Shown here: piece by piece, positions 11,805 to 23,170 of the stretch
Position numbering within the stretch: the first letter of the stretch is position 1
How the letters are laid out: each line of letters starts with the position of its first letter
DNA from: Collinsella stercoris DSM 13279
Lineage (GTDB): Bacteria > Actinomycetota > Coriobacteriia > Coriobacteriales > Coriobacteriaceae
NCBI RefSeq assembly: GCF_020735465.1
Contig: NZ_CP085935.1
Coordinates: 682,001 to 746,000, forward strand
Direction: 5' to 3'
DNA length: 64,000 bases
Program-made: the position numbers and the translations under genes
Notes under the pieces: generated by a model
Database searches by the model: none
The model's input: only the letters and a program-made list of their open reading frames with translations
What the model was told of the DNA's origin: nothing

Positions 11805-13154
11805 CTAGTGCTCCGAGTCCAGATCGATCGTCGTCCCCTCGAGCACCTTGTTGACCGTGCGCACCGCACACATCTTGCCGCACATCGTGCAGGTGCCCTT
11901 GGTGGCCGCCGGCGATGCCTCGTAGCGCTCGCGAGCCGTCTGGGGATCGAGGGCGTACTTCCACATCTCTTCCCAGTCGAGCTTGCGCCGGGCCTGCGCC
12001 ATGCGGTTATCCGCGTCGCGCGCGCCGGGGACGCCCTTGGCGATGTCGGCCGCGTGGGCCGCGATCTTGGTCGCCATGAGGCCTTCGAGCACGTCGTGGG
12101 CGTCGGGCAGGCACAGGTGCTCGGCGGGGGTCACGTAGCATAGGAAGTCCGCGCCGGCCGAGGCCGAGATGGCGCCGCCGATGGCCGCGGTGATGTGGTC
12201 GTAGCCCACGCCGATGTCGGTCACGAGCGGCCCCAGCACGTAGAAGGGGGCGTTGTGGCACAACCGCTTTTGCAGCTTGATGTTCGCCGCGATCTCGTCG
12301 ATCGCCATGTGCCCGGGGCCCTCGACCATGACCTGCACGCCGGCGTCCCAGGCGCGTTTGGTGAGCTTGCCCAGCTCGATCATCTCGGCGGTCTCCATGG
12401 CGTCGTTGGCGTCGTAGAGGCAACCCGGGCGGCAGGAGTCGCCGAGCGAGATGGTCACGTCGTACTCGTGGCAGATTTTGAGGACCTCATCGTAGAACTC
12501 GTAGAAGGGGTTCTCGTTGCCGGTGACCTCCATCCAGCCAAAGAGCAGGCTGCCGCCGCGGCTCACGATGTTCATGAGGCGGCCGGTCTCCTTGAAGGTC
12601 TTCACCACCGAGCGGTTGATGCCCGCGTGCACGGTGACGAAGTCCACGCCGTCCTCGGCATGCACGCGCAGGACCTCGAGCAGGTCCTCGGCGGTGAGTT
12701 CGACCAGCGGTTTCTCCATGTAGCCGATGGCGTCGTACATGGGCACGGTACCCACCATGAGCGGACACTCGTCGATCACCTGTTGGCGGAAGGCACGGGT
12801 CTTGCCGGAGTTGGAGAGGTCCATGATGGCATCGGCGCCGCGGTTGACGGCGATGCCGACCTTCTTCCACTCCTCGGCTGCGTCGGCCTTGTCGCCCGAG
12901 ATGCCGAGGTTCACGTTGACCTTGGTGGAGAGGCCCTCGCCCACGCCGCGCGGGGTGAGGCCGCGCTCGATATGGCGGATGTTGGCCGGGATGGCGATCG
13001 AGCCGCGCGCCACGCGCTCGCGGATGTACCCGGGGTCGCGCCCCTCGTGCTCGGCCACGGTGCGCATCTGCGGGGTGATCTTGCCCGCGCGGGCGAAGTC
13101 CATCTGCGTGATGGGCTCGTTCGGCGGATTGCCGGCGGTGTTGATGGTGCTCAT
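11805..13154 (-). CDS. thiC: Phosphomethylpyrimidine synthase ThiC (short form)
   Basis: 449 residues. It rearranges aminoimidazole ribotide to HMP-phosphate, a radical-SAM reaction. The core motifs are present (NLGISGDKADAAEEWKK, EGPGHMAIDEI, VGYDHITAAIGGA). The C-terminal cluster motif reads CTMCGKMC, that is CX2CX3C, one residue tighter than the CX2CX4C of E. coli ThiC. I believe this occurs in the short ThiC clade that lacks the N-terminal domain, but could not check. The ATG at 13154 follows GGGAG by seven bases, and that GGGAG is part of the upstream TPP riboswitch. First gene of the thiamin operon. Confidence 0.95.
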   Translation of the reverse strand: MSTINTAGNPPNEPITQMDFARAGKITPQMRTVAEHEGRDPGYIRERVARGSIAIPANIRHIERGLTPRGVGEGLSTKVNVNLGISGDKADAAEEWKKVGIAVNRGADAIMDLSNSGKTRAFRQQVIDECPLMVGTVPMYDAIGYMEKPLVELTAEDLLEVLRVHAEDGVDFVTVHAGINRSVVKTFKETGRLMNIVSRGGSLLFGWMEVTGNENPFYEFYDEVLKICHEYDVTISLGDSCRPGCLYDANDAMETAEMIELGKLTKRAWDAGVQVMVEGPGHMAIDEIAANIKLQKRLCHNAPFYVLGPLVTDIGVGYDHITAAIGGAISASAGADFLCYVTPAEHLCLPDAHDVLEGLMATKIAAHAADIAKGVPGARDADNRMAQARRKLDWEEMWKYALDPQTARERYEASPAATKGTCTMCGKMCAVRTVNKVLEGTTIDLDSEH

Positions 13155-13161
13155 GCACTCG

Positions 13162-13252
13162 CTCCCTTCGTTGGCATTATCCATATCAGGTTCTTCGGGT
13201 CGGGGCGGGCGCCGCCCCCTCTCAGCTTGCCGTCTCGTCCTGCAGGCTCCCC
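13162..13252 (-). ncRNA. TPP riboswitch (THI element)
   Basis: Read on the minus strand the region gives GGGGAGCCTGCAGG, then the conserved CTGAGAG, a GC-rich P3-like stem, ACCCGAAGAACCTGAT and GGATAATGCCAACGAAGGGA, the standard order of TPP-binding elements. The 3' strand of P1 ends in GGGAG, which is also the thiC ribosome site seven bases before the ATG. Ligand binding should therefore hide the ribosome site and repress translation. No separate terminator hairpin fits between it and the ATG. Confidence 0.95.
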
Positions 13253-13275
13253 GTGATATGCAGTTGTCGGTTCCG

Positions 13276-13281: not shown

Positions 13282-13323
13282 AGCCCTATCCGCGCACACG
13301 GCGCCGTCTTTCGCGCCTTTTAC

Positions 13324-13632
13324 CTAGCGTTTATTGAAGACGAAGGTCTGACGCGGTCCGCTCCCGTTCGAAAGCTCGGGCGCGAAGCGGAACCCCATAT
13401 CGAAGCGTTTGAGGTCGTCGGGGCCCTCGGCTCCCATCTCGAGTCGATAGGGCTGCACGGCGTCGAAGGGACGCGCGCAGCCGTAGAGCTCGGACAGGAT
13501 CCAGAGGTGCTCCTGCAGCCAGGCGAGCGCGCACTCGTCCAGGATCCCGGGGGCCATGTTCTGATACTGGATTCCCACGTAGGAGAAGATCGCGGGCGCA
13601 ACGAGGCGGGCGAGGGCGGGATCGTCGAGGCC
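13324..13632 (-). pseudogene. yaaA (DUF328, peroxide-stress) remnant
   Basis: The recognisable part runs LDDPALARLVAPAIFSYVG, GIQYQNMAPGILDE, LQEHLWILSELYG and DAVQPYRLEMG, matching the centre of YaaA proteins (GIQY and QPYRLEMG motifs). The N-terminal third is missing, and the usual C-terminus after RLEMG is replaced by a short tail ending in FVFNKR. The upstream side abuts a transposase fragment in another frame. The gene is broken at both ends and should not be functional. Confidence 0.75.
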
Positions 13633-13639
13633 TGCCCCT

Positions 13640-14215
13640 CCGTGAGGTCCTCGGGGTTCTCGGGCAGCGGGAACCTGAGGCCCCTCACCCGCCCGGCCGG
13701 GTCGGGAGGGGCGGGCTCACCCTTGCGCGGGCGTCCGCGGCGCCGTCTCGGCGCGGGCGCCGACCCGGTCTCCCTCCACGCGCGGCGCCCCGGCTCGTCG
13801 AGGGCGCCGGTCGCCCACGAGACGGCGTGGAAGGGGTCGACGGCGAGCTCGGCGCCGGGGGCCCTCTCCGCGACGACGTCGGCGATCCGGCGCGCGCCGC
13901 CGGCGGTGACGACCTCGATGCCGGCGCGCTGCCCCTCCGTGAGCGGGTCGAGGAAGGCGTTGAGCTGGCGCCTGCCGTGGCCGGCGCAGGCCCACACGAC
14001 CCTTCCCCGGTCGTGGTCGACCACCACGGTCATGTACTTGCGGCCCTTCTCGTAGCCGGTCTCGTCGACGCCGATCGAGCGCAGACCGTCGAGGCGGCCC
14101 CGCCCGTCGGCCTCCTCGAGCGATGCCCCCACGCGGGCGCATATCCCGTCCACGGGACCGCCTGCGCCTTGACGCCGCGCTCGGGGCACTCCACGCGGCG
14201 CGGGGTGCGCCGCTG
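13640..14215 (-). mobile_element. ISL3-family transposase remnant
   Basis: A decayed transposase reads in pieces: RRVECPERGVKAQAVPW (zinc-finger end), then in another frame SIGVDETGYEKGRKYMTVVV, AELAVDPFHAVSWATGALDE and PENPEDLTEGQ, the order seen in ISL3-family enzymes. A frameshift separates the first two pieces. Both protein ends are missing: the finger lacks its first half, and the sequence stops at DLTEGQ, where about 150 residues should follow. No terminal inverted repeats were identified. It marks the left border of the surface-structure operon. Confidence 0.75.
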
Positions 14216-14309: not shown

Positions 14310-14337
14310 TTGCAAAATGGTAGATGTGTCGTATACT
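14310..14337 (+). promoter_or_regulatory. Promoter of the surface-structure operon
   Basis: TTGCAA (14310-14315), a 16-base spacer and TATACT (14332-14337) form the best sigma-70-like promoter in the region. It lies in AT-richer sequence and predicts a start near 14344, 37 bases before the GTG at 14381. Confidence 0.6.
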
Positions 14338-14380
14338 GGTCATCAAATTTAAATACCTTATCCCCCTAGGAAGCTCGCCA

Positions 14381-14916
14381 GTGCTCAAGAAGTTATTACA
14401 TACTCTAATATGTGTTGGGGGGGGGTCGCTCTTTCGCTCCTCATTGCATTTGTAGGTGTTCGTCTTCTAGGATTGACCCCTTATGCAGTTCTGAGTGGCA
14501 GTATGGAGCCCGAGTACCCCGTGGGCTCCCTCATCTACGTTGCCTCCGTGGAGCCGGAAGAGGTCTCGATCGGTGATGCGATCACCTTCGAGCTGGGGTC
14601 GGGCACGCTGGTGACCCATCAGGTCTACGAGGTGGACCAAGCCAATCGACAATTCAATACGCAGGGCATCGCCAACAAGACGGGCGACGGCGAGATCGTG
14701 CATGACGCGCAGCCGGTGCCGTACGAGCGCTTGGTTGGCAAGCCCGTGCTGTGCATTCCCTTCCTTGGTTATCTCAACAGCCTGCTCACGGGGCGGGCTG
14801 GCCTCTTCATCATCGCGGCTGCCCTCCTGCTGATGCTCGCCGCGGCGATCGGCATCGAGCTCATCGAGCGCTCCGAGGCCGATCACACCCCGATCGGGTC
14901 GCACATGCGCAGATAG
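14381..14916 (+). CDS. sipW: SipW-type signal peptidase I, frame broken at a G9 tract
   Basis: The protein has one N-terminal membrane segment, the catalytic serine box YAVLSGSMEPEYPVGSL, VTHQV with histidine in place of the usual lysine (the ER/archaeal type), GDGEIV, and a C-terminal membrane segment. The GTG at 14381 has AGGAAG seven bases upstream and gives VLKKLLHTLICVG, a normal SipW start. A run of nine G (14417-14425) then puts it out of frame with the rest. Ten or seven G would restore a 178- or 177-residue protein. In the present sequence only an ATG at 14410 without a ribosome site is in frame, giving 168 residues. The expected clients are the SipW-cognate precursors downstream. 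Confidence 0.85.
14417..14425 (+). repeat. Poly-G tract (G9) in the 5' end of sipW
   Basis: Nine consecutive G between TGTGTT and TCGCTC, 36 bases inside the gene from the GTG start. Tracts of this kind change length by slipped-strand mispairing and give ON/OFF switching in known phase-variable genes. Here the reading is OFF for the GTG start. Confidence 0.85.
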
Positions 14917-14965: not shown

Positions 14966-15676
14966 ATGATGGAACAGCAGAAGAAGAAAAGGACCGGCCT
15001 GGTGATCGCCCTCGTGGCCTGTCTCGCCCTCGTCGGCGTCGCCGGCGTCATGGCGTGGTATTCGTCCACGAGCGAGATCACGAACAACTTCGTCGACGGC
15101 GGAATCACCGAACCCGGCACCGACCCGACCGACCCCAACAAGCCGCTTAAGCCCGATGTTACCCCCGACCCCGAGCACAACGGACATCATGGCCAGGTCA
15201 ACGGCAACATCGTCGAGAATCAGTGGATCGCGAACTCCAAGGTGACCCCTGGCTCCTCCATCCCCAAGAACCCCAACGTGGGCATCGGCAAGAACTCCGA
15301 TAGCTGCTATGTCTTCGTGAACGTCAAGAACAACTTCACGAGCGGCGCCCACTTCACGCTGAACAATGGCTGGAAGGCCGTCCAGGCGACCCAGTACAAT
15401 AGCCAGGCAAACGAGTACACGGGCGGCCTCTTCGTGTACGTGGGCAAGGACGTCGCTGTCAACGCCGGTGACGCCGCCATCCTCACGGCCAACCCCACCG
15501 CCGACAGCTGGACCGGCGAGGTCTTCAGCAAGGTCAAGTTCGATGCGGACGCCGTCCTGGGGAACAGCAAGTCCATCAAGGTGAGCGCCTACCTGGTCGC
15601 AGCTTCCAACAAGACCGAGCAGATCGACGTCGCCGAGATCACCGACGCCGCCAAGGCCTGGGCTAACAAGCAGTAG
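14966..15676 (+). CDS. SipW-cognate secreted protein, TasA-like, fibre subunit candidate
   Basis: 236 residues (or 235 from the ATG at 14969; both follow an AAGGAAGGAG site). A lysine-rich start and a hydrophobic segment (about 11-31) end in VMAWYSSTSEITNNF, the signal-peptide class processed by SipW in TasA/CalY-type proteins. Then comes a Pro/Asp linker (EPGTDPTDPNKP) and an Asn-rich, beta-rich body with one Cys. There is no sorting motif or C-terminal membrane segment, so it is released or assembled. It follows sipW by 49 bases, and a long hairpin after it suggests it is the most abundant product of the operon. Fibre formation is inferred from the TasA analogy. Confidence 0.82.
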   Translation: MMEQQKKKRTGLVIALVACLALVGVAGVMAWYSSTSEITNNFVDGGITEPGTDPTDPNKPLKPDVTPDPEHNGHHGQVNGNIVENQWIANSKVTPGSSIPKNPNVGIGKNSDSCYVFVNVKNNFTSGAHFTLNNGWKAVQATQYNSQANEYTGGLFVYVGKDVAVNAGDAAILTANPTADSWTGEVFSKVKFDADAVLGNSKSIKVSAYLVAASNKTEQIDVAEITDAAKAWANKQ

Positions 15677-15763: not shown

Positions 15764-16477
15764 ATGAGCGATGCAGTCGAAGACAAGGAAGCAACGACCC
15801 GGGCAGCTGGTTCGAATAGCGCCGTGAGAGAGGATGCGAGGCGGGATGGGCCAACGGTGTCCGAGGACGCGCCGCGCCGCCAGCCTGCTCGACGCGCCTG
15901 CATCGCGGCGCTCGGGTGCGTGCTGCTTCTCGCCCTGCTGGCGGCTGGCGCCGCGCAGCAGACCCTCTCCGCTGGATCTCGTAGCGCCATCGCGCAGAAT
16001 CGCGCGACCTTCGGCGGCGTGTCCGTCCGCGTGATCGAGAGCATGCCCGGGCCCTCCGGCGCGGAGGTCCCCGCCGAGACGGTCGATATACCCGTGGGCG
16101 ATTACGGCAAGGTCGATCGCATGGTGCGCGTGGAGAACGCCGGCTCGCACCCCGCCTATATCCGCGTCCGCCTGGACTTTGTAGGGGAGACCCCGGAAGG
16201 GGAGCATATCCCGCTCAACGATTGCATCACCTACCAGTTGGCCGCCCAGGGTTGGACCGAGCATGATGGCTGGTACTACTGCGACACCGCCCTCGAGGGC
16301 GGCGAGCGCACGACCGAGCTCATAACCGGCATGGTGGTCGACGCCGCATCCGCGCGCGCCGCAGCGCCCGGAGCGGAGCTCAAGCTCCATGTCGTGGGCC
16401 AGGGCGTCCAGGTCGAGAACAACGCCGCCGCGGCGATTGACGCCGAGGGCTGGCCGGAGGAAGGGGGCGAGCGCTGA
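15764..16477 (+). CDS. Membrane-anchored surface-operon protein (SipW-substrate-like)
   Basis: 237 residues, no confident family name. A 44-residue charged N-terminus precedes one hydrophobic segment (about 45-63, IAALGCVLLLALLAAGAA), then an outside domain of about 170 residues with VDIPVGDYGKVDRMVRVENAG and DGWYYCDTALEGGE. The latter resembles WVEGADGFYYWCSPLEPG in the protein at 21855, so the two outside domains are probably homologous. The stop overlaps the start of the next gene by one base (TGATG), implying translational coupling with the giant adhesin. It may be a minor subunit or base; this is inference. Confidence 0.75.
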   Translation: MSDAVEDKEATTRAAGSNSAVREDARRDGPTVSEDAPRRQPARRACIAALGCVLLLALLAAGAAQQTLSAGSRSAIAQNRATFGGVSVRVIESMPGPSGAEVPAETVDIPVGDYGKVDRMVRVENAGSHPAYIRVRLDFVGETPEGEHIPLNDCITYQLAAQGWTEHDGWYYCDTALEGGERTTELITGMVVDAASARAAAPGAELKLHVVGQGVQVENNAAAAIDAEGWPEEGGER

Positions 16478-19400
16478 TGGCGAACATTCGAGGTAAGGTG
16501 CTCTCCATATGCGTCGCGCTGCTGCTGGCTGGATCGTTCCTGATGGTTCCCGCGCCCGCTGCGGCCCAGCAACAGGTCACCACCATCAAGAACTTCGCGG
16601 ATCTGCTCTCGGCGTGCCTGAGCTCGAGGAACATGGATACGAGCAACGTCCATTACGTCCTCGACCTGCACGACGCCAAGGACAAGACGCTCGACTTGTC
16701 GAGCGATCAGGTCGATAGCATCGTCCAACAGATCGGTTCGCTCACCTTCGGCAGCAAGGACAACCCCTTCAAGGGCACCTTCGACGGCCAGGGCTACACC
16801 ATCAAAGGCCTTAACTACGAGCGGAAACTCTTCGTCCCCGCCCCCGACACGGGCCTGTTCGCCTGGACGGACGGCGCCACCATCAAGAACATCAACTTCG
16901 AGGACGCCTACATCGGCGCGGACTATCGTGGTGGCGTGATCGTGGGCTACGCCAAGAACAGCAACTTCGAGCACATCAAGCTCACCAACTGCACGTCGTC
17001 GGTCACCCCGGCCAACAACGCCGTCTCGCTGGTTACCAACGCCGGCCTGGCCGGAGGCATGGTCGCGGGCGAGGCTGAGGGCTGCACGTTCTACGACATC
17101 GAGGTCGAGGGCGGCAGTGTCATCAACAACTCCACGATCGCGGTGTCCGGCCTCGGCGGCGAGGGTCTGTATCTGGGGGCCATCGCGGGCATCGCGGAAG
17201 GCTCTACCATCGAGTACTGCCGCACCCTGCCCATCCGTTCGCTCGGCGCAGACGGCAAGGTCGCCTACACCTATCCGCGCGTGCACAACAAGTACGACGT
17301 CGCGGTTGGCGCCGTCGCCGGTCAGGCGGTGTACGCGGGCGGTATAGCGGGGGCCATCGGCAAGGGCACGCGCGTCATCGACAGCTTCTCGACCGCGGAC
17401 TGCTACACCTACGCCGCGACTTACGTCAGCGTGGGCGCGGGCAACGTCGGGTACGTCGGCGGCATCGCCGCGCGCTCCGACAACGGCTCCCAGATCACCC
17501 GTTGCCACTACGCCGGCAACCTGCACTCCAATCTGTACAACGCGCTGCTGGTGATCCCCATCATCCAGAAGAACCTCTACCTGGGCGGAATCGTCCAGCA
17601 GGACAACGACGCCGACTGCGCGATCCGCGATACCTACTTCAAGCCGAGCGTGAGCAGCGTGCTCGACCCGGGCACCAACAAGGACCTGCCCTCGATCAAC
17701 GACCGCAGGAACAAGAAGGTGTACTCGGGCTCCTCGTTCGGTCCCCAGGACGACAAGACCTATGCCGACCGCTCGTTCTGGGAGTCGGCGGACTTCGACT
17801 TCGAGGGCGGCATCCAGCGCACGACCGACTGCCTGGGCGGCAAACCCCATATCAACAAGTGGATCATGGATTACGACCTGGGGATTCCCGTGCACGGCTC
17901 CTCCGTCAAGGCCACAATCGACTTCCCCGGAGCGGGCACGGCGACCATCGGTCCCAACTCGCTCATCGCGACCAACGCGCCTCAGACCACCTCCGATCCC
18001 TACACCTTCGCCGTCCAGGGCTACCTGCCGAGCGATTTCGACATGGAGCTCGAGGCCAAGACGACCGCTTTGGACGAGATCGCCGATTCCGAGCTGAGCG
18101 ATCCCAAGAACCAGGGCTTCGTCTTCCGCGAGTGGTATCGTGCGCGCGATGTCGACGAGAACCGCATCGACCCCGATCCCTCCCTGATCGCCGGATTGAT
18201 CACGGCGGGGGAGACGGTGTCGGCAAATGCCGTCACCAAGGTGAAGAACACCGGACCCGGAGACGACTCCGGCTTCCGCGACAACGACCTCTTCATCGCC
18301 CACAGCCAGGCGATGGTGCTGTTCCACGACGTCAAGGGCGACGTGGTCGACCCGATGACCGGTGAGCCGCGTGGCGTCTCCGAGGCGGATTGGTACGATT
18401 GTGCCGCTCCGCTACCCAACGCCGTCGAGCCCAAGGTCGACCGCGCGCAGGGCGGCTCCGTGAGCGACACCGCGGTCTTCCAGGGATGGACGAGCAGGAA
18501 GAACACCGAGGGTCCCGATGCCGGCTATGCCGCCGTCACTTCGACCCAGCTCGCCGCCATGAAGCGCGACGGCGTCTTCTACGCCGCGGGAGACCCCGTG
18601 ATGCGCCCGCTCGACCTGTATCCCGTCTACTCGGATTACTCGTCCAACATCAAGACGGTGTTCGAGGGCCATAAGTACGATGTCGCCGGCGCTCCCGTCG
18701 TCGACGACAAGCCCTTCATGCGCAAGGGCGTCGGCGAGACCAGCATCGCTACGCGCGAGGTCGACGGAGTGAAGCGCTACGAGCTGTCGGTCAAGAAGGT
18801 CGGCGGCGCCGCCGCGTGGCCGGACGGCTACCGCTTCCGCGGCTGGTACTTCAACCTCGACGACGGCACCGAGGTGCGCCTGTCCGATAAGGAGACCTTT
18901 CTGCTGCCGCTCGATACCGACTTGACGCGTGAGACCACCTATACCGCGCGCTTCGAGTACCGCGTCGACTACTATGCGAAGTCCTTCAACGACCCGGACC
19001 TGTTCCCCGCGAAGCTCGTCATCTCCAAGTGGGAGCGCTACGAGAGCGTGCCCGCGCAGATTGAGGGCCCGATCTTCGACGCCGAGAGCGTGCTTCACTG
19101 GGGCGCCGATTACGCGCGCCACGGCAGGCGGGACGAGCCATGCAACGGAATCTATGCACAAAATATCGTCGCGCCGGTCAAGCTCTACTCCCATAATCTC
19201 GTTGAGGAAAACAACTACCACCTTATGGTCGATACCGACTTTCCTGATTCAGGCGCCGTCGACTTGAAGTGGATCGGCGACACGCGCGGTTTCGAGATGA
19301 GGTTCACCCCTGACATCGAGGCATCGGATGCGTCCGCTCCCGGCTATCGCTTCCTGTTCTGGTCCCTGCAGAATAGGCAATCCGACGGCCTTGGCAATCG

Positions 19401-21858
19401 ATGGAGCTATGTTAAGAATCCGACTCGAACTGGAAGGCTCGGAAGCACCGCTGCATACAAGTACCGTGGCCGCGCCTTCGTGGTGGCCGAGGCGCGGTTC
19501 CATAAGGTGGACGAGCAGCAGACGGTGGAGGTCTGCCGTCGCTACGACGAGCCGGTCCTACTGCCCGCCGACGTGCATCATGACTACAAGTGGCCCTTCG
19601 CGCTCGACGGCGTGTCCTTCGACGGTCTCGTGAACGAGACCGGGCCGGAGGATGGCACCCTTGCCGATATCCGCGCCGCCAACGTCGACTCCGGCGCCTC
19701 GCCGTCCGCCGCCGAGATGGCGCGCGAGGGCTACTACTTCATCGGATGGATCGACGGATCCAAGGGTTCGGAGACCGAGAAGGGCGGCAAGGTCTGGAAC
19801 GCCCTCTACGACGGCACCGACGCGTACTGCACCACCGATATCAGCCATGCCCTGTCCTACATCGTGCTCGAGTCCGACCGCGTGAGCGCTCCGATGGACC
19901 TCTATCCCATCTATTCCAAGTACGACTACGCCGCGACGACCAACATCAAGCGCGCGGGCGTCGTGGACGGAGCCGGCATCAACGTGCCCAAGGACCCGAC
20001 GGCGCTCCTCGCCAAGGATCTCGGCGACGGTCGGATCAGGGTCGATTTCTCCGCCGACACCCATACGCGCATCACCGATGGCGGGGACCTCTATAAGCTC
20101 GTGTCGTGGACCGTCGAGCGCAACGGAGCGCCTATCGCGACCATCTCGGCAACGGCGCCCGACGGGTCTCCCGCGCCCGAGGTCGGCAAGCCGGTCGGCA
20201 ACGATAACGCCAAGCTTTCGTATACCTTCCCGGCCGGTCCGTCCTACACCTTCGTGGCGAACTACGAGCCCCTTGCCGTCGTCTACCACACCAACGTCGA
20301 CGCCGTGCAGGTCGTGACCCGCAACAAGGGCGACCGTTTGGGCGACGCGCCAGAGGGTGCGCCTGCGTTCGCACTCGAGGATGTCGATAAGGTCGCGGGC
20401 CAGCGCGTCGTGTTCACGGGTTGGACTGAGGTTCGGCCCGAGGGGGACGCTCAGTACGTTATCGACCACGACGGCACCACGCCTCTCGTCAACAAGTCCA
20501 CGCGCGTCAACCGCAGCATGGAGCTCTTCGCCGTCTACCGCGTGAGCGGGGTCACGGTCGATTCCAACATCGATGACGTGCTGCTCGGACTCGGATTCAC
20601 GGACCTCTCGAAGGTGCGCACCGTCGTCCGCGGCGACTTCGGCCGGCTGTCGCTGGCGGCGGAGCCCGTTCCCGGCTACGAGTTCCAGGGTTGGTACCGG
20701 GATTACGACCATGCCGCCGGCACGGGAACGCTGGTGACCGAGTCCGATGCCCATCCACTCGGCTCGGCCGTGTTCGATAAGGCGTGCTACACCGCCGTGT
20801 ACAAGGCGGTCCACGAGGTCCGCTACCACGGCGTCGACGGCGGCGTCATCTACACGGCCTACGTGCACGAGGACGACCCGCGCTCCTTCATCGAGATGGT
20901 CGACAAGATCGGTCCCGACGGCAAGCCGACGGGCGAGACCGTGCCGAGCTTCATCGATGCCGAGGCGCTGCTGAAGATCAACGCGCAGCTCGATGCCGCG
21001 GCGCAGGTTGCGGGCGCCACGGAGCGCGAGCTGTTCGATAACTGGGCCCGCAAGGTCGATGGGCGCCTGGTGCCGTGCGAGGATGCGTTCTACGAGGCGC
21101 AGATCAATCGCGACCTCGACCTGTATCCGGTCGCCTGGCGCGTGTCCGCCTCTGATTCGGCCGGTAAGCCCTTCATGCCCGAGATGCTGTGGGCGCTCGA
21201 CATGAAGGCGGCCAACGACGGGGATTCCTCGACCGCTCCGGTCAAGGGCTACTTCAAGAACCCTTACGCCCAGCCCGAGCTGAGCGTGACCGTGCAAAAG
21301 GTCGGCTACGGGGCGCAGGGTGAGCCTCCGACGGTCGCGCCCCAGCCCGATGTCGACGTCGCCGTCTACGCGGCGCCGATGTTCGATGCGGAGCTCGTAG
21401 GCAACGAGATGACCGACGACCAGGGCATCGCGCGATTCAAGTTCAACGGATCCATCGTCATCACCAAGGAGGTGGCGGATGCGGCGGCAGATGGGCGCTC
21501 GTTCAGCTTCGTCGTGACCGACACCAAGACGGGGGATTCCAGAACGGTCCTCGTTCCCGTGGCCCTGGCCCAGGGCGGAGCGAGCTGCTCCGGCTCAAAG
21601 ACGCTCGTGCTCCCGTTTGGCACGTACCGCGTCGCTGAGGACGGTGCCTGGGCCTGGCGCTACGCGGGCGCGCTGAGCGTCGGCGGCAAGCCCTCCGCGA
21701 GCCCCGCCACGTTCGACGTCGACACGACCAAGCCCCTGCGCGTGGCGTGCGCCAACGAGCGCGTGAGCGACCTCTGGCTCGACGGCCAGGGGGATGCCCA
21801 TAACGTGTTCGAAGCACCTGCAAGCACCGTCGCTCCGAAGGGACGTGATCGCCTGTGA
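16477..21858 (+). CDS. Giant secreted adhesin with GLUG-like and InlB B-type repeats
   Basis: 1793 residues. A Sec signal peptide (about 1-30, ending PAPAAA) leads into a Gly-rich region (about 85-420) with recurrent GGIAG/GAVAG turns, the GLUG/beta-helix style of adhesins. Then come repeated modules with an aromatic-Gly-Trp core (YRFRGWYF, YYFIGWID, RVVFTGWTE, YEFQGWYRD) each followed by LYPVYS-like ends, as in Listeria-Bacteroides (InlB B) repeats. Near 1590-1760 is a SpaA/Cna-B-like fold region (DDQGIARFKFNGS, LPFGTYRVAEDG). There is no LPxTG or C-terminal membrane helix, so it must be held by a partner, plausibly the LAQTG protein or the fibre. Both ends overlap the neighbouring genes. 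Confidence 0.85.
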   Translation: MANIRGKVLSICVALLLAGSFLMVPAPAAAQQQVTTIKNFADLLSACLSSRNMDTSNVHYVLDLHDAKDKTLDLSSDQVDSIVQQIGSLTFGSKDNPFKGTFDGQGYTIKGLNYERKLFVPAPDTGLFAWTDGATIKNINFEDAYIGADYRGGVIVGYAKNSNFEHIKLTNCTSSVTPANNAVSLVTNAGLAGGMVAGEAEGCTFYDIEVEGGSVINNSTIAVSGLGGEGLYLGAIAGIAEGSTIEYCRTLPIRSLGADGKVAYTYPRVHNKYDVAVGAVAGQAVYAGGIAGAIGKGTRVIDSFSTADCYTYAATYVSVGAGNVGYVGGIAARSDNGSQITRCHYAGNLHSNLYNALLVIPIIQKNLYLGGIVQQDNDADCAIRDTYFKPSVSSVLDPGTNKDLPSINDRRNKKVYSGSSFGPQDDKTYADRSFWESADFDFEGGIQRTTDCLGGKPHINKWIMDYDLGIPVHGSSVKATIDFPGAGTATIGPNSLIATNAPQTTSDPYTFAVQGYLPSDFDMELEAKTTALDEIADSELSDPKNQGFVFREWYRARDVDENRIDPDPSLIAGLITAGETVSANAVTKVKNTGPGDDSGFRDNDLFIAHSQAMVLFHDVKGDVVDPMTGEPRGVSEADWYDCAAPLPNAVEPKVDRAQGGSVSDTAVFQGWTSRKNTEGPDAGYAAVTSTQLAAMKRDGVFYAAGDPVMRPLDLYPVYSDYSSNIKTVFEGHKYDVAGAPVVDDKPFMRKGVGETSIATREVDGVKRYELSVKKVGGAAAWPDGYRFRGWYFNLDDGTEVRLSDKETFLLPLDTDLTRETTYTARFEYRVDYYAKSFNDPDLFPAKLVISKWERYESVPAQIEGPIFDAESVLHWGADYARHGRRDEPCNGIYAQNIVAPVKLYSHNLVEENNYHLMVDTDFPDSGAVDLKWIGDTRGFEMRFTPDIEASDASAPGYRFLFWSLQNRQSDGLGNRWSYVKNPTRTGRLGSTAAYKYRGRAFVVAEARFHKVDEQQTVEVCRRYDEPVLLPADVHHDYKWPFALDGVSFDGLVNETGPEDGTLADIRAANVDSGASPSAAEMAREGYYFIGWIDGSKGSETEKGGKVWNALYDGTDAYCTTDISHALSYIVLESDRVSAPMDLYPIYSKYDYAATTNIKRAGVVDGAGINVPKDPTALLAKDLGDGRIRVDFSADTHTRITDGGDLYKLVSWTVERNGAPIATISATAPDGSPAPEVGKPVGNDNAKLSYTFPAGPSYTFVANYEPLAVVYHTNVDAVQVVTRNKGDRLGDAPEGAPAFALEDVDKVAGQRVVFTGWTEVRPEGDAQYVIDHDGTTPLVNKSTRVNRSMELFAVYRVSGVTVDSNIDDVLLGLGFTDLSKVRTVVRGDFGRLSLAAEPVPGYEFQGWYRDYDHAAGTGTLVTESDAHPLGSAVFDKACYTAVYKAVHEVRYHGVDGGVIYTAYVHEDDPRSFIEMVDKIGPDGKPTGETVPSFIDAEALLKINAQLDAAAQVAGATERELFDNWARKVDGRLVPCEDAFYEAQINRDLDLYPVAWRVSASDSAGKPFMPEMLWALDMKAANDGDSSTAPVKGYFKNPYAQPELSVTVQKVGYGAQGEPPTVAPQPDVDVAVYAAPMFDAELVGNEMTDDQGIARFKFNGSIVITKEVADAAADGRSFSFVVTDTKTGDSRTVLVPVALAQGGASCSGSKTLVLPFGTYRVAEDGAWAWRYAGALSVGGKPSASPATFDVDTTKPLRVACANERVSDLWLDGQGDAHNVFEAPASTVAPKGRDRL

Positions 21859-22526
21859 GCGCTAAGCACTTCAAGCAGCCGCCTGCCCCGAAGCATGGCC
21901 GCACCCCGCGTCGCGCGACGGTCGCCGTTGCTGCCGTCGCCGCGCTGGCGCTACTCGGCGCCGCCGCTACGTTCGCGTACTACACCGCTACGTCCGGAAT
22001 CACCAACATGTTCACTTCGGCCCACGTCGCGCCCCAGGTGAGCGAGGAATTCAAGCCCGATGCCGGTATCAAGGAGAACGTCGGGGCGATGCTGCCCGAC
22101 GATGGGAAGAACATCGCCTCCTACGTGCGCATGGGCTTCTCCATCTATTGGCAGGATAAGGACGGCGCCCAGCTCTGGGAGGAGCCGCTCTCATCGGAGT
22201 CCGGCCTGCCCACGGGGATCCTTCCCGATTACACCATCGTCATGGGGGACGCTCTTAAGGCAAATCCGCAGCCGGGATCTTGGGTCGAGGGCGCCGACGG
22301 CTTCTACTACTGGTGCTCGCCGCTCGAGCCGGGCGCCGCGACCGACGCGCTCATCAAGAAGGTCACGTGGGACCTTGGCCATCCCGACGGGCGCAAGCTC
22401 GTGGTCGACGTCTCGGTCCAGGGTATCCAGGTCGATCCCCATCGCGCGTTCAACGAGGCTTGGGGCGCCTCCTCGGGCCTCACGCCCGGCGCTGATGGCG
22501 TTCTCGTTCGGAAGGGAGGCAACTGA
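21855..22526 (+). CDS. Second SipW-cognate (TasA-like) secreted protein
   Basis: 223 residues, starting at a GTG that overlaps the adhesin stop (GTGA). A basic N-terminus (RTPRR) is followed by a hydrophobic segment (about 22-42) ending FAYYTATSGITNMFTSA, very close to the TSEITNNF junction of the first TasA-like protein. This marks it as a SipW substrate. The mature part has IASYVRMGFSIYWQD and VEGADGFYYWCSPLEPG, shared in style with the protein at 15764. There is no anchor motif. Its coupling to the adhesin and the anchor gene suggests a minor or adaptor subunit. Confidence 0.8.
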   Translation: MSAKHFKQPPAPKHGRTPRRATVAVAAVAALALLGAAATFAYYTATSGITNMFTSAHVAPQVSEEFKPDAGIKENVGAMLPDDGKNIASYVRMGFSIYWQDKDGAQLWEEPLSSESGLPTGILPDYTIVMGDALKANPQPGSWVEGADGFYYWCSPLEPGAATDALIKKVTWDLGHPDGRKLVVDVSVQGIQVDPHRAFNEAWGASSGLTPGADGVLVRKGGN

Positions 22527-23170
22527 TGCAGCGAGGAGGAATCCGGCGCGGTATGCGCGCCTGCCTGCTCACGGCACTGGTATCGCTCGTCTTGCTGATG
22601 GCGTCGGCGCCTACCGCCTGGGGCCAGGGCGTTCCGACGGTTGTCTACGACGGCGCGAGCGAGCAGATCGTCTTCGAGGGGGCCGACGGCACCGATTTGC
22701 TTTTGGGCGCGAAGGATCTCATGCCCGGAGACGCGATCGAGCAGAGCGTGCGCGTCGAGGCTCGCAACCTCAGGCGTCCTGTCGAGCTGTTCGTCGAGGC
22801 CGTCTTCGAGGGACCGGTGCCCGGTCTTGAGAACGTCGAGGTCGCCGTCCTGCTTGATGGACGCGAAATCGCACGCGGACCGCTTGCTACCCAGCACGGC
22901 ATGGCCGAGCCCGTCTCACTGGGCACGCTGGATGCGGATGGCTCGCGCGAGCTCCTTGTTTGCTTGAACGTGCCCGTGGAGGTCGGCAACGAGACTATGG
23001 AGGCCGTTCAGGCGCTCGACTGGCGCTTCGTCGCGGAGGATCGAGCGGTGGGAGGCGCCGACGGCAACCTCGCCCAGACAGGGGATGGCACGTGGCTGGT
23101 CCTCGCGCCCTTCGTGCTCGCTGGCACCGTCCTGGTCACGTGCGGCCTTCGTTCCAGGGCGCGCGGCTAG
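22526..23170 (+). CDS. LAQTG-type cell-wall-anchored surface protein
   Basis: 214 residues, starting one base inside the previous stop (TGATG). A Sec signal (about 1-34, ending PTAWGQG) precedes a compact beta-rich domain with paired acidic strands. The C-terminus is a sortase signal: LAQTG at 182-186, a hydrophobic stretch (about 190-206), then RSRARG. LxxTG variants are usual in Coriobacteriia. It is the only operon member with a covalent wall anchor, so it could hold the fibre or the adhesin on the cell. No sortase gene is in the window; a housekeeping sortase elsewhere is assumed. Confidence 0.82.
   Translation: MQRGGIRRGMRACLLTALVSLVLLMASAPTAWGQGVPTVVYDGASEQIVFEGADGTDLLLGAKDLMPGDAIEQSVRVEARNLRRPVELFVEAVFEGPVPGLENVEVAVLLDGREIARGPLATQHGMAEPVSLGTLDADGSRELLVCLNVPVEVGNETMEAVQALDWRFVAEDRAVGGADGNLAQTGDGTWLVLAPFVLAGTVLVTCGLRSRARG

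Follow-up and report, generated by a model that had tools for sequence, protein, structure and literature searches.

Why should a gene with an intact body be recorded out of frame with the only start codon equipped for translation? The question is raised by a sipW-like signal peptidase gene in a 64,000-nucleotide stretch of the genome of Collinsella stercoris DSM 13279 (contig NZ_CP085935.1, positions 682,001 to 746,000), referred to below as the window, whose numbering and forward strand are used unless indicated otherwise. The gene is preceded by a sigma-70-like promoter (TTGCAA and TATACT separated by 16 nt; 14310-14337), the one match detected before sipW by a consensus scan (vs 0.4 in shuffled sequences), and by a ribosome site, AGGAAG (14368-14373), placed 7 bases 5' of a GTG codon (14381-14383). 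The frame opened by this GTG (14381-14455; VLKKLLHTLICVGGGSLFRSSLHL) encodes the basic N-terminus and the first hydrophobic residues of SipW, and includes, as codons 13-15 counted from the GTG, an uninterrupted run of nine G (14417-14425). From this sole start with a ribosome site, the nine G end translation after 24 codons, at a TAG (14453-14455), while the sipW body is intact elsewhere. The frame holding the motif YAVLSGSMEP is open from a TAA at 14350 to position 14916 and lies one frame off from that of the GTG. Its sole ATG, GTG or TTG start is the ATG at 14410, 5' of which there are no SD-like bases. No leader RNA was found at sipW with Rfam. The first-pass annotation had described the start with its promoter and ribosome site, the frame break at the nine G and the poorly equipped ATG, and the sequence, the consensus scan and the frame analysis bear out each of these points.

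Comparison with relatives indicates which of the two starts is used. In most of them 37-38 codons separate the sipW start from SGSMEP and an SD sequence is often present; in a clade of six species the start lies 41-43 codons before this motif, without a clear SD. If the tract in the window is counted one G longer, GTG 14381 lies 38 codons from SGSMEP; the claim that one extra G restores the register thus agrees with the gene structure of the relatives. In an alignment the first residues encoded from this GTG (LKKLL) resemble the basic starts of the relatives (LRRVF, ISRIW). Since GTG 14381 fits both the conserved start-to-SGSMEP distance and the basic N-terminus, it is very likely, judging from these comparisons, the true start of sipW.

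The open frame of the sipW body (14410-14916, 168 aa) encodes an ER-type signal peptidase I: it scores 78.5 bits with TIGR02228 (curated cut-off 51.85), and its relatives in PDB are SEC11A/C. The Ser of SGSMEP and the His of VTHQV, which we take to be the catalytic residues of SipW, are invariant across the SipW alignment. With NF046067, the equivalog model for SipW of Bacillus, the score is 67.8 bits, below the cut-off of 190; the window protein is SipW-like and other than the Bacillus equivalog. It is the only sipW match in the whole genome.

Downstream of sipW, five open genes are closely spaced on the same strand, and the junctions of this putative operon show neither a clear promoter nor a clear terminator. 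The first (14966-15676) encodes a TasA-like candidate substrate with a SipW-type signal peptide (TIGR04088, 20.2 bits; cut-off 19). The next gene (15764-16477) gave no family match in profile searches and is followed by one for a 1793-aa protein with repeats of the Listeria-Bacteroides/InlB type (16477-21858; PF09479, 36.7 bits), whose N-terminus, read by eye, is of the Sec type. A second candidate substrate (21855-22526), weakly BsaA-like, carries another SipW-type signal (TIGR04088, 25.7 bits; cut-off 19), and its score with TIGR04090 (25.9 bits) is under the cut-off of 60. The last gene of the putative operon (22526-23170) again has no family match in profile searches. A SipW-type signal above the curated TIGR04088 cut-off is therefore present in two of the operon proteins only; in relatives, the gene after sipW usually begins with a similar signal (read by eye). 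The role of SipW in Bacillus is the basis of the substrate analogy, by which the operon proteins would need SipW for their export. The earlier proposal that one switch would control all SipW-dependent subunits at once goes beyond these two signals, and its extension to all subunits is what we infer.

The length of the tract says little by itself. The genome (a single contig of 2,460,750 bases) has a GC content of 66.6%, and G/C runs of at least 9 number 1 in the window, vs 0.76 expected from composition, and about 18 genome-wide, vs 29 expected from order-1 composition. Two observations point in the opposite direction. Somewhat shorter runs are depleted in the window: 12 of at least 6 are seen vs 40 expected, and 1 of at least 7 vs 10.7 expected, lengths 7 and 8 being absent. 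Moreover, within the 270 AT-rich bases that surround the tract about 0.001 runs would be expected. As composition accounts for it, we dropped tract length on its own as evidence. In Campylobacter, putative phase-variable tracts peak at 9 and 10 G, and a minimum of 7 G or C, located in the 5' portion of an open frame, serves as the cut-off for translational phase variation (PMC6321876). The G9 of sipW lies above this cut-off, and, by frame calculation, a change in its length toggles between a long and a truncated SipW product.

The case for a switch is carried by comparison with relatives rather than by tract length. In 12 of 21 other sipW loci of Coriobacteriales (13 of 22 with the window), loci that are not independent of each other, the 600 bases that precede the SGSMEP codons include an uninterrupted run of 9-13 G, against a background of 0.016 per locus. 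These tracts occupy five or six different sites. In the window, and in a genome of another genus (G341), the run is inside the sipW coding region; in G018 and in G340/G249 it is in the promoter spacer; in six congeners it lies at about -435, and in G199/G419 at -253/-267, where the sequence gave no clear promoter reading. The run of G341 is 3' of an AGGAGG-GTG start and likewise puts the gene out of frame; an initial promoter-type reading of this tract was replaced by the coding-type one given that start. The coding position is limited to the window and G341, there being no G tract inside sipW of the congeners.

In G018, G340 and G249 nine G lie between the -35 and -10 boxes, directly after the -35, in spacers of 16-17 nt. 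The spacer is 16 in G018; in G340 and G249 the run comes right after TTGAC, with TATCCT or TATTCT 17 bases past TTGACG. Three further genomes (G128, G054 and G062) retain TTGACGGGGG, with a run that is shorter or interrupted. In the window, the promoter spacer is AATGGTAGATGTGTCG and has no G tract, which sets this promoter apart from the spacer type. The homologous upstream tract of the six congeners measures 9, 9, 9, 10, 11 and 13 G between conserved flanks; its length, a point raised in the first-pass annotation, varies between relatives at that upstream site, and the coding tract of the window has no counterpart in the congeners. A TACGAT right 3' of this -435 tract is a possible -10 box, for which no good -35 was seen (by eye). 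The sipW run is the sole run of at least 10 G in the genome of G037, and one of two in G002.

Several observations accompany this comparison. The flank of one genome, G075 (family f3), is identical to Paraeggerthella hongkongensis contig L049, which makes the order of the window that of Paraeggerthella. The sipW locus of G002 (L033) has a second run, of 8 G, at about -376 relative to the SGSMEP codons; the aligned position holds 3-5 G in five congeners. Four genomes (G033, G034, G035 and G008) each show between tens and hundreds of G10 matches, arranged in long runs. This excess probably consists of poly-G read artefacts; poly-G counts are inflated in these assemblies, and a tract from them was considered only if its flanks were conserved. 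A search of IMG/VR recovered no copy of the window tract from the same species.

Poly-G tracts that break genes are not restricted to sipW. Two sugar regulators of the PRD/PTS-EIIA (BglG/MtlR) type in this genome (G000; loci L106/L090) are broken on the minus strand by 12 G (G000:C1:902331-902342) and 13 G (G000:C1:1608591-1608603), and the congener homologues of both are without the tract. Two plus-strand genes are out of frame at the signal peptide, one for a GH20 hexosaminidase (G11; G000:C1:2393525-2393535, L103) and one for a secreted protein with an F5/8 domain (G9; G000:C1:2242897-2242905, L099). In G031 the corresponding position of the latter gene carries 13 G, whereas G018, G027 and G040 lack a run there. 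Other congeners have runs of at least 10 in coding or start regions, with different lengths at homologous loci (e.g. 10/13, 10/12). A gene start of the form GAGCCGCATATGCATGCAGCGGCAAT...C, ten G and T(C/A)(G/T)CTCCT recurs in several congeners, up to three times per genome (loci L235, L239-L241, L256 and L266 of G001, G003, G007 and G013). We also noted, at G000:C1:77638-77646 (plus strand; L001), a TTGACC followed by G9 with TTCAAT 17 bases on, possibly a second poly-G promoter of the spacer type in G000.

MutS was found in none of 21 genomes of the genus by searches that were positive in 11 of 14 controls. NucS was not found in this genome, and most of the 21 genus genomes yielded no convincing NucS. 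By these searches, the genus may have neither of the two known mismatch repair systems. A host where MutS was not found is one that would permit slippage, a property we regard as supportive of switching rather than defining. Indels are in any case not corrected by NucS (PMC8228993), and in meningococci the loss of mismatch repair raises switching at mononucleotide tracts 100- to 1000-fold (PMC3639595).

The reading frames, the start comparison, the recurrent and variable tracts of relatives, the other broken genes and the negative searches for MutS and NucS together support the interpretation put forward in the first-pass annotation. We consider it probable that the nine G form a slipped-strand contingency tract among the first codons of sipW, recorded in the OFF state, at the head of a six-gene fibre operon. 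Replication slippage would add or remove single Gs, more often than usual given that searches turned up no MutS in the genus and no NucS in this genome. Roughly one tract length in three would restore the frame (ON), and the cell line that was assembled would be OFF. In OFF cells SipW would be absent, or weakly made from ATG 14410, the SipW-type precursors of the operon would stay unmatured and the fibre would remain undisplayed. A single tract would in this way switch an export step, and not a single antigen. In other Coriobacteriales the poly-G tracts of sipW lie in the promoter spacer or elsewhere upstream, and in one other genus within the gene. We further lean towards the view that poly-G switching has recurrently targeted sipW across Coriobacteriales, in the promoter spacer or upstream in some lineages and in the coding region in others, as part of a wider poly-G repertoire of gut bacteria for which MutS searches were negative, by which cells switch a whole export pathway and not single antigens.

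The strongest alternative is a miscount during sequencing or assembly, in which case the real tract would have another length and sipW would be in frame, with or without switching. Some read types miscount homopolymers of at least 9 G more often than anything else, GTG 14381 fits the family only in another register, and each of the five coding G tracts looked at in this genome lies out of frame, possibly through a length bias of the assembly. A codon-frame scan, run on the window together with 20 further stretches of this genome, recovered as a control the G12 break of one regulator and missed the G13 break of the other. Its three candidates in the window are antisense shadows or a transposase remnant. 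Because it revealed no other break linked to a long homopolymer there, the assembly is not generally poor; the shorter G/C runs of the window, moreover, are located within open genes. Were the count off by one, the tract would still be of switching length, and nothing would change for the tracts of relatives. On this evidence we hold a miscount to be unlikely.

A second alternative is that sipW is expressed anyway, from ATG 14410 or through -1 recoding, with the run setting a level of expression and not acting as a switch. The ATG heads an open frame of 168 aa, GGG codons pair again once a -1 slip has occurred (whether by the ribosome or by transcript slippage at the G run), and the RNA just 3' of the tract folds somewhat better than shuffled sequences (z -2.06). 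The ATG, however, is without a ribosome site, and its product would lack the basic N-terminus and have 28 residues before SGSMEP instead of 37-38. Recoding, for its part, cannot act on the tracts of relatives that are sited in or near promoters, and we regard this explanation as improbable. That the gene has been lost for good through a plain frameshift, with sipW heading towards a pseudogene, is more doubtful still: a remnant of an ISL3-type transposase lies directly upstream and sipW is broken in G062, but the body has no stops and keeps all conserved residues, the five downstream genes are open and no kind of change reverts more readily than one in a homopolymer.

Most of what is known of slipped-strand phase variation comes from pathogens of mucosal surfaces, among them Neisseria, Helicobacter and Campylobacter. 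A contingency tract in sipW would resemble lgtG of Neisseria and the poly-G genes of Campylobacter jejuni (PMC3639595, PMC6321876), in which poly-G in the 5' part of the frame likewise shifts the frame with its length. The window differs from these loci in that the gene encodes a dedicated signal peptidase of a gut actinobacterium, and not a glycosyltransferase or an antigen, and in that switching is proposed from sequence. The promoter type has a counterpart in porA of Neisseria meningitidis, which has 9-11 G between the -35 and -10 boxes (PMC3639595); G018, G340 and G249, with 9 G in the sipW promoter spacer, are alike, whereas the tract of the window is in a coding region. The operon shares with tapA-sipW-tasA of Bacillus subtilis an ER-type signal peptidase adjoining proteins with SipW-type signals, and differs from it in having the 1793-aa repeat protein and a sipW below the NF046067 cut-off. 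No report of phase variation of the Bacillus subtilis operon was present in the papers found. Within the same order, a surface feature of Eggerthella lenta, the capsule, also varies in phase, through large DNA inversions; homopolymers and poly-G are unmentioned in that work (PMC13174815). Our literature search, which left subscription journals mostly outside, returned no published description of sipW phase variation or of a poly-G repertoire in Coriobacteriales.

Several signs suggest slipped-strand phase variation in gut actinobacteria for which searches for MutS were negative. If the proposed switch is true, a single tract at a processing enzyme could switch the maturation of several exported proteins together, and this would account for mixed surface phenotypes of these commensals.

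Two further features were observed upstream of sipW on the opposite strand. The frameshifted remnant of the ISL3-type-like transposase (13320-14189, minus strand) lies directly upstream of the sipW promoter and may have introduced the promoter region or displaced it. Beyond it, a TPP riboswitch (13145-13263, minus strand; Rfam, 57.3 bits) precedes thiC.
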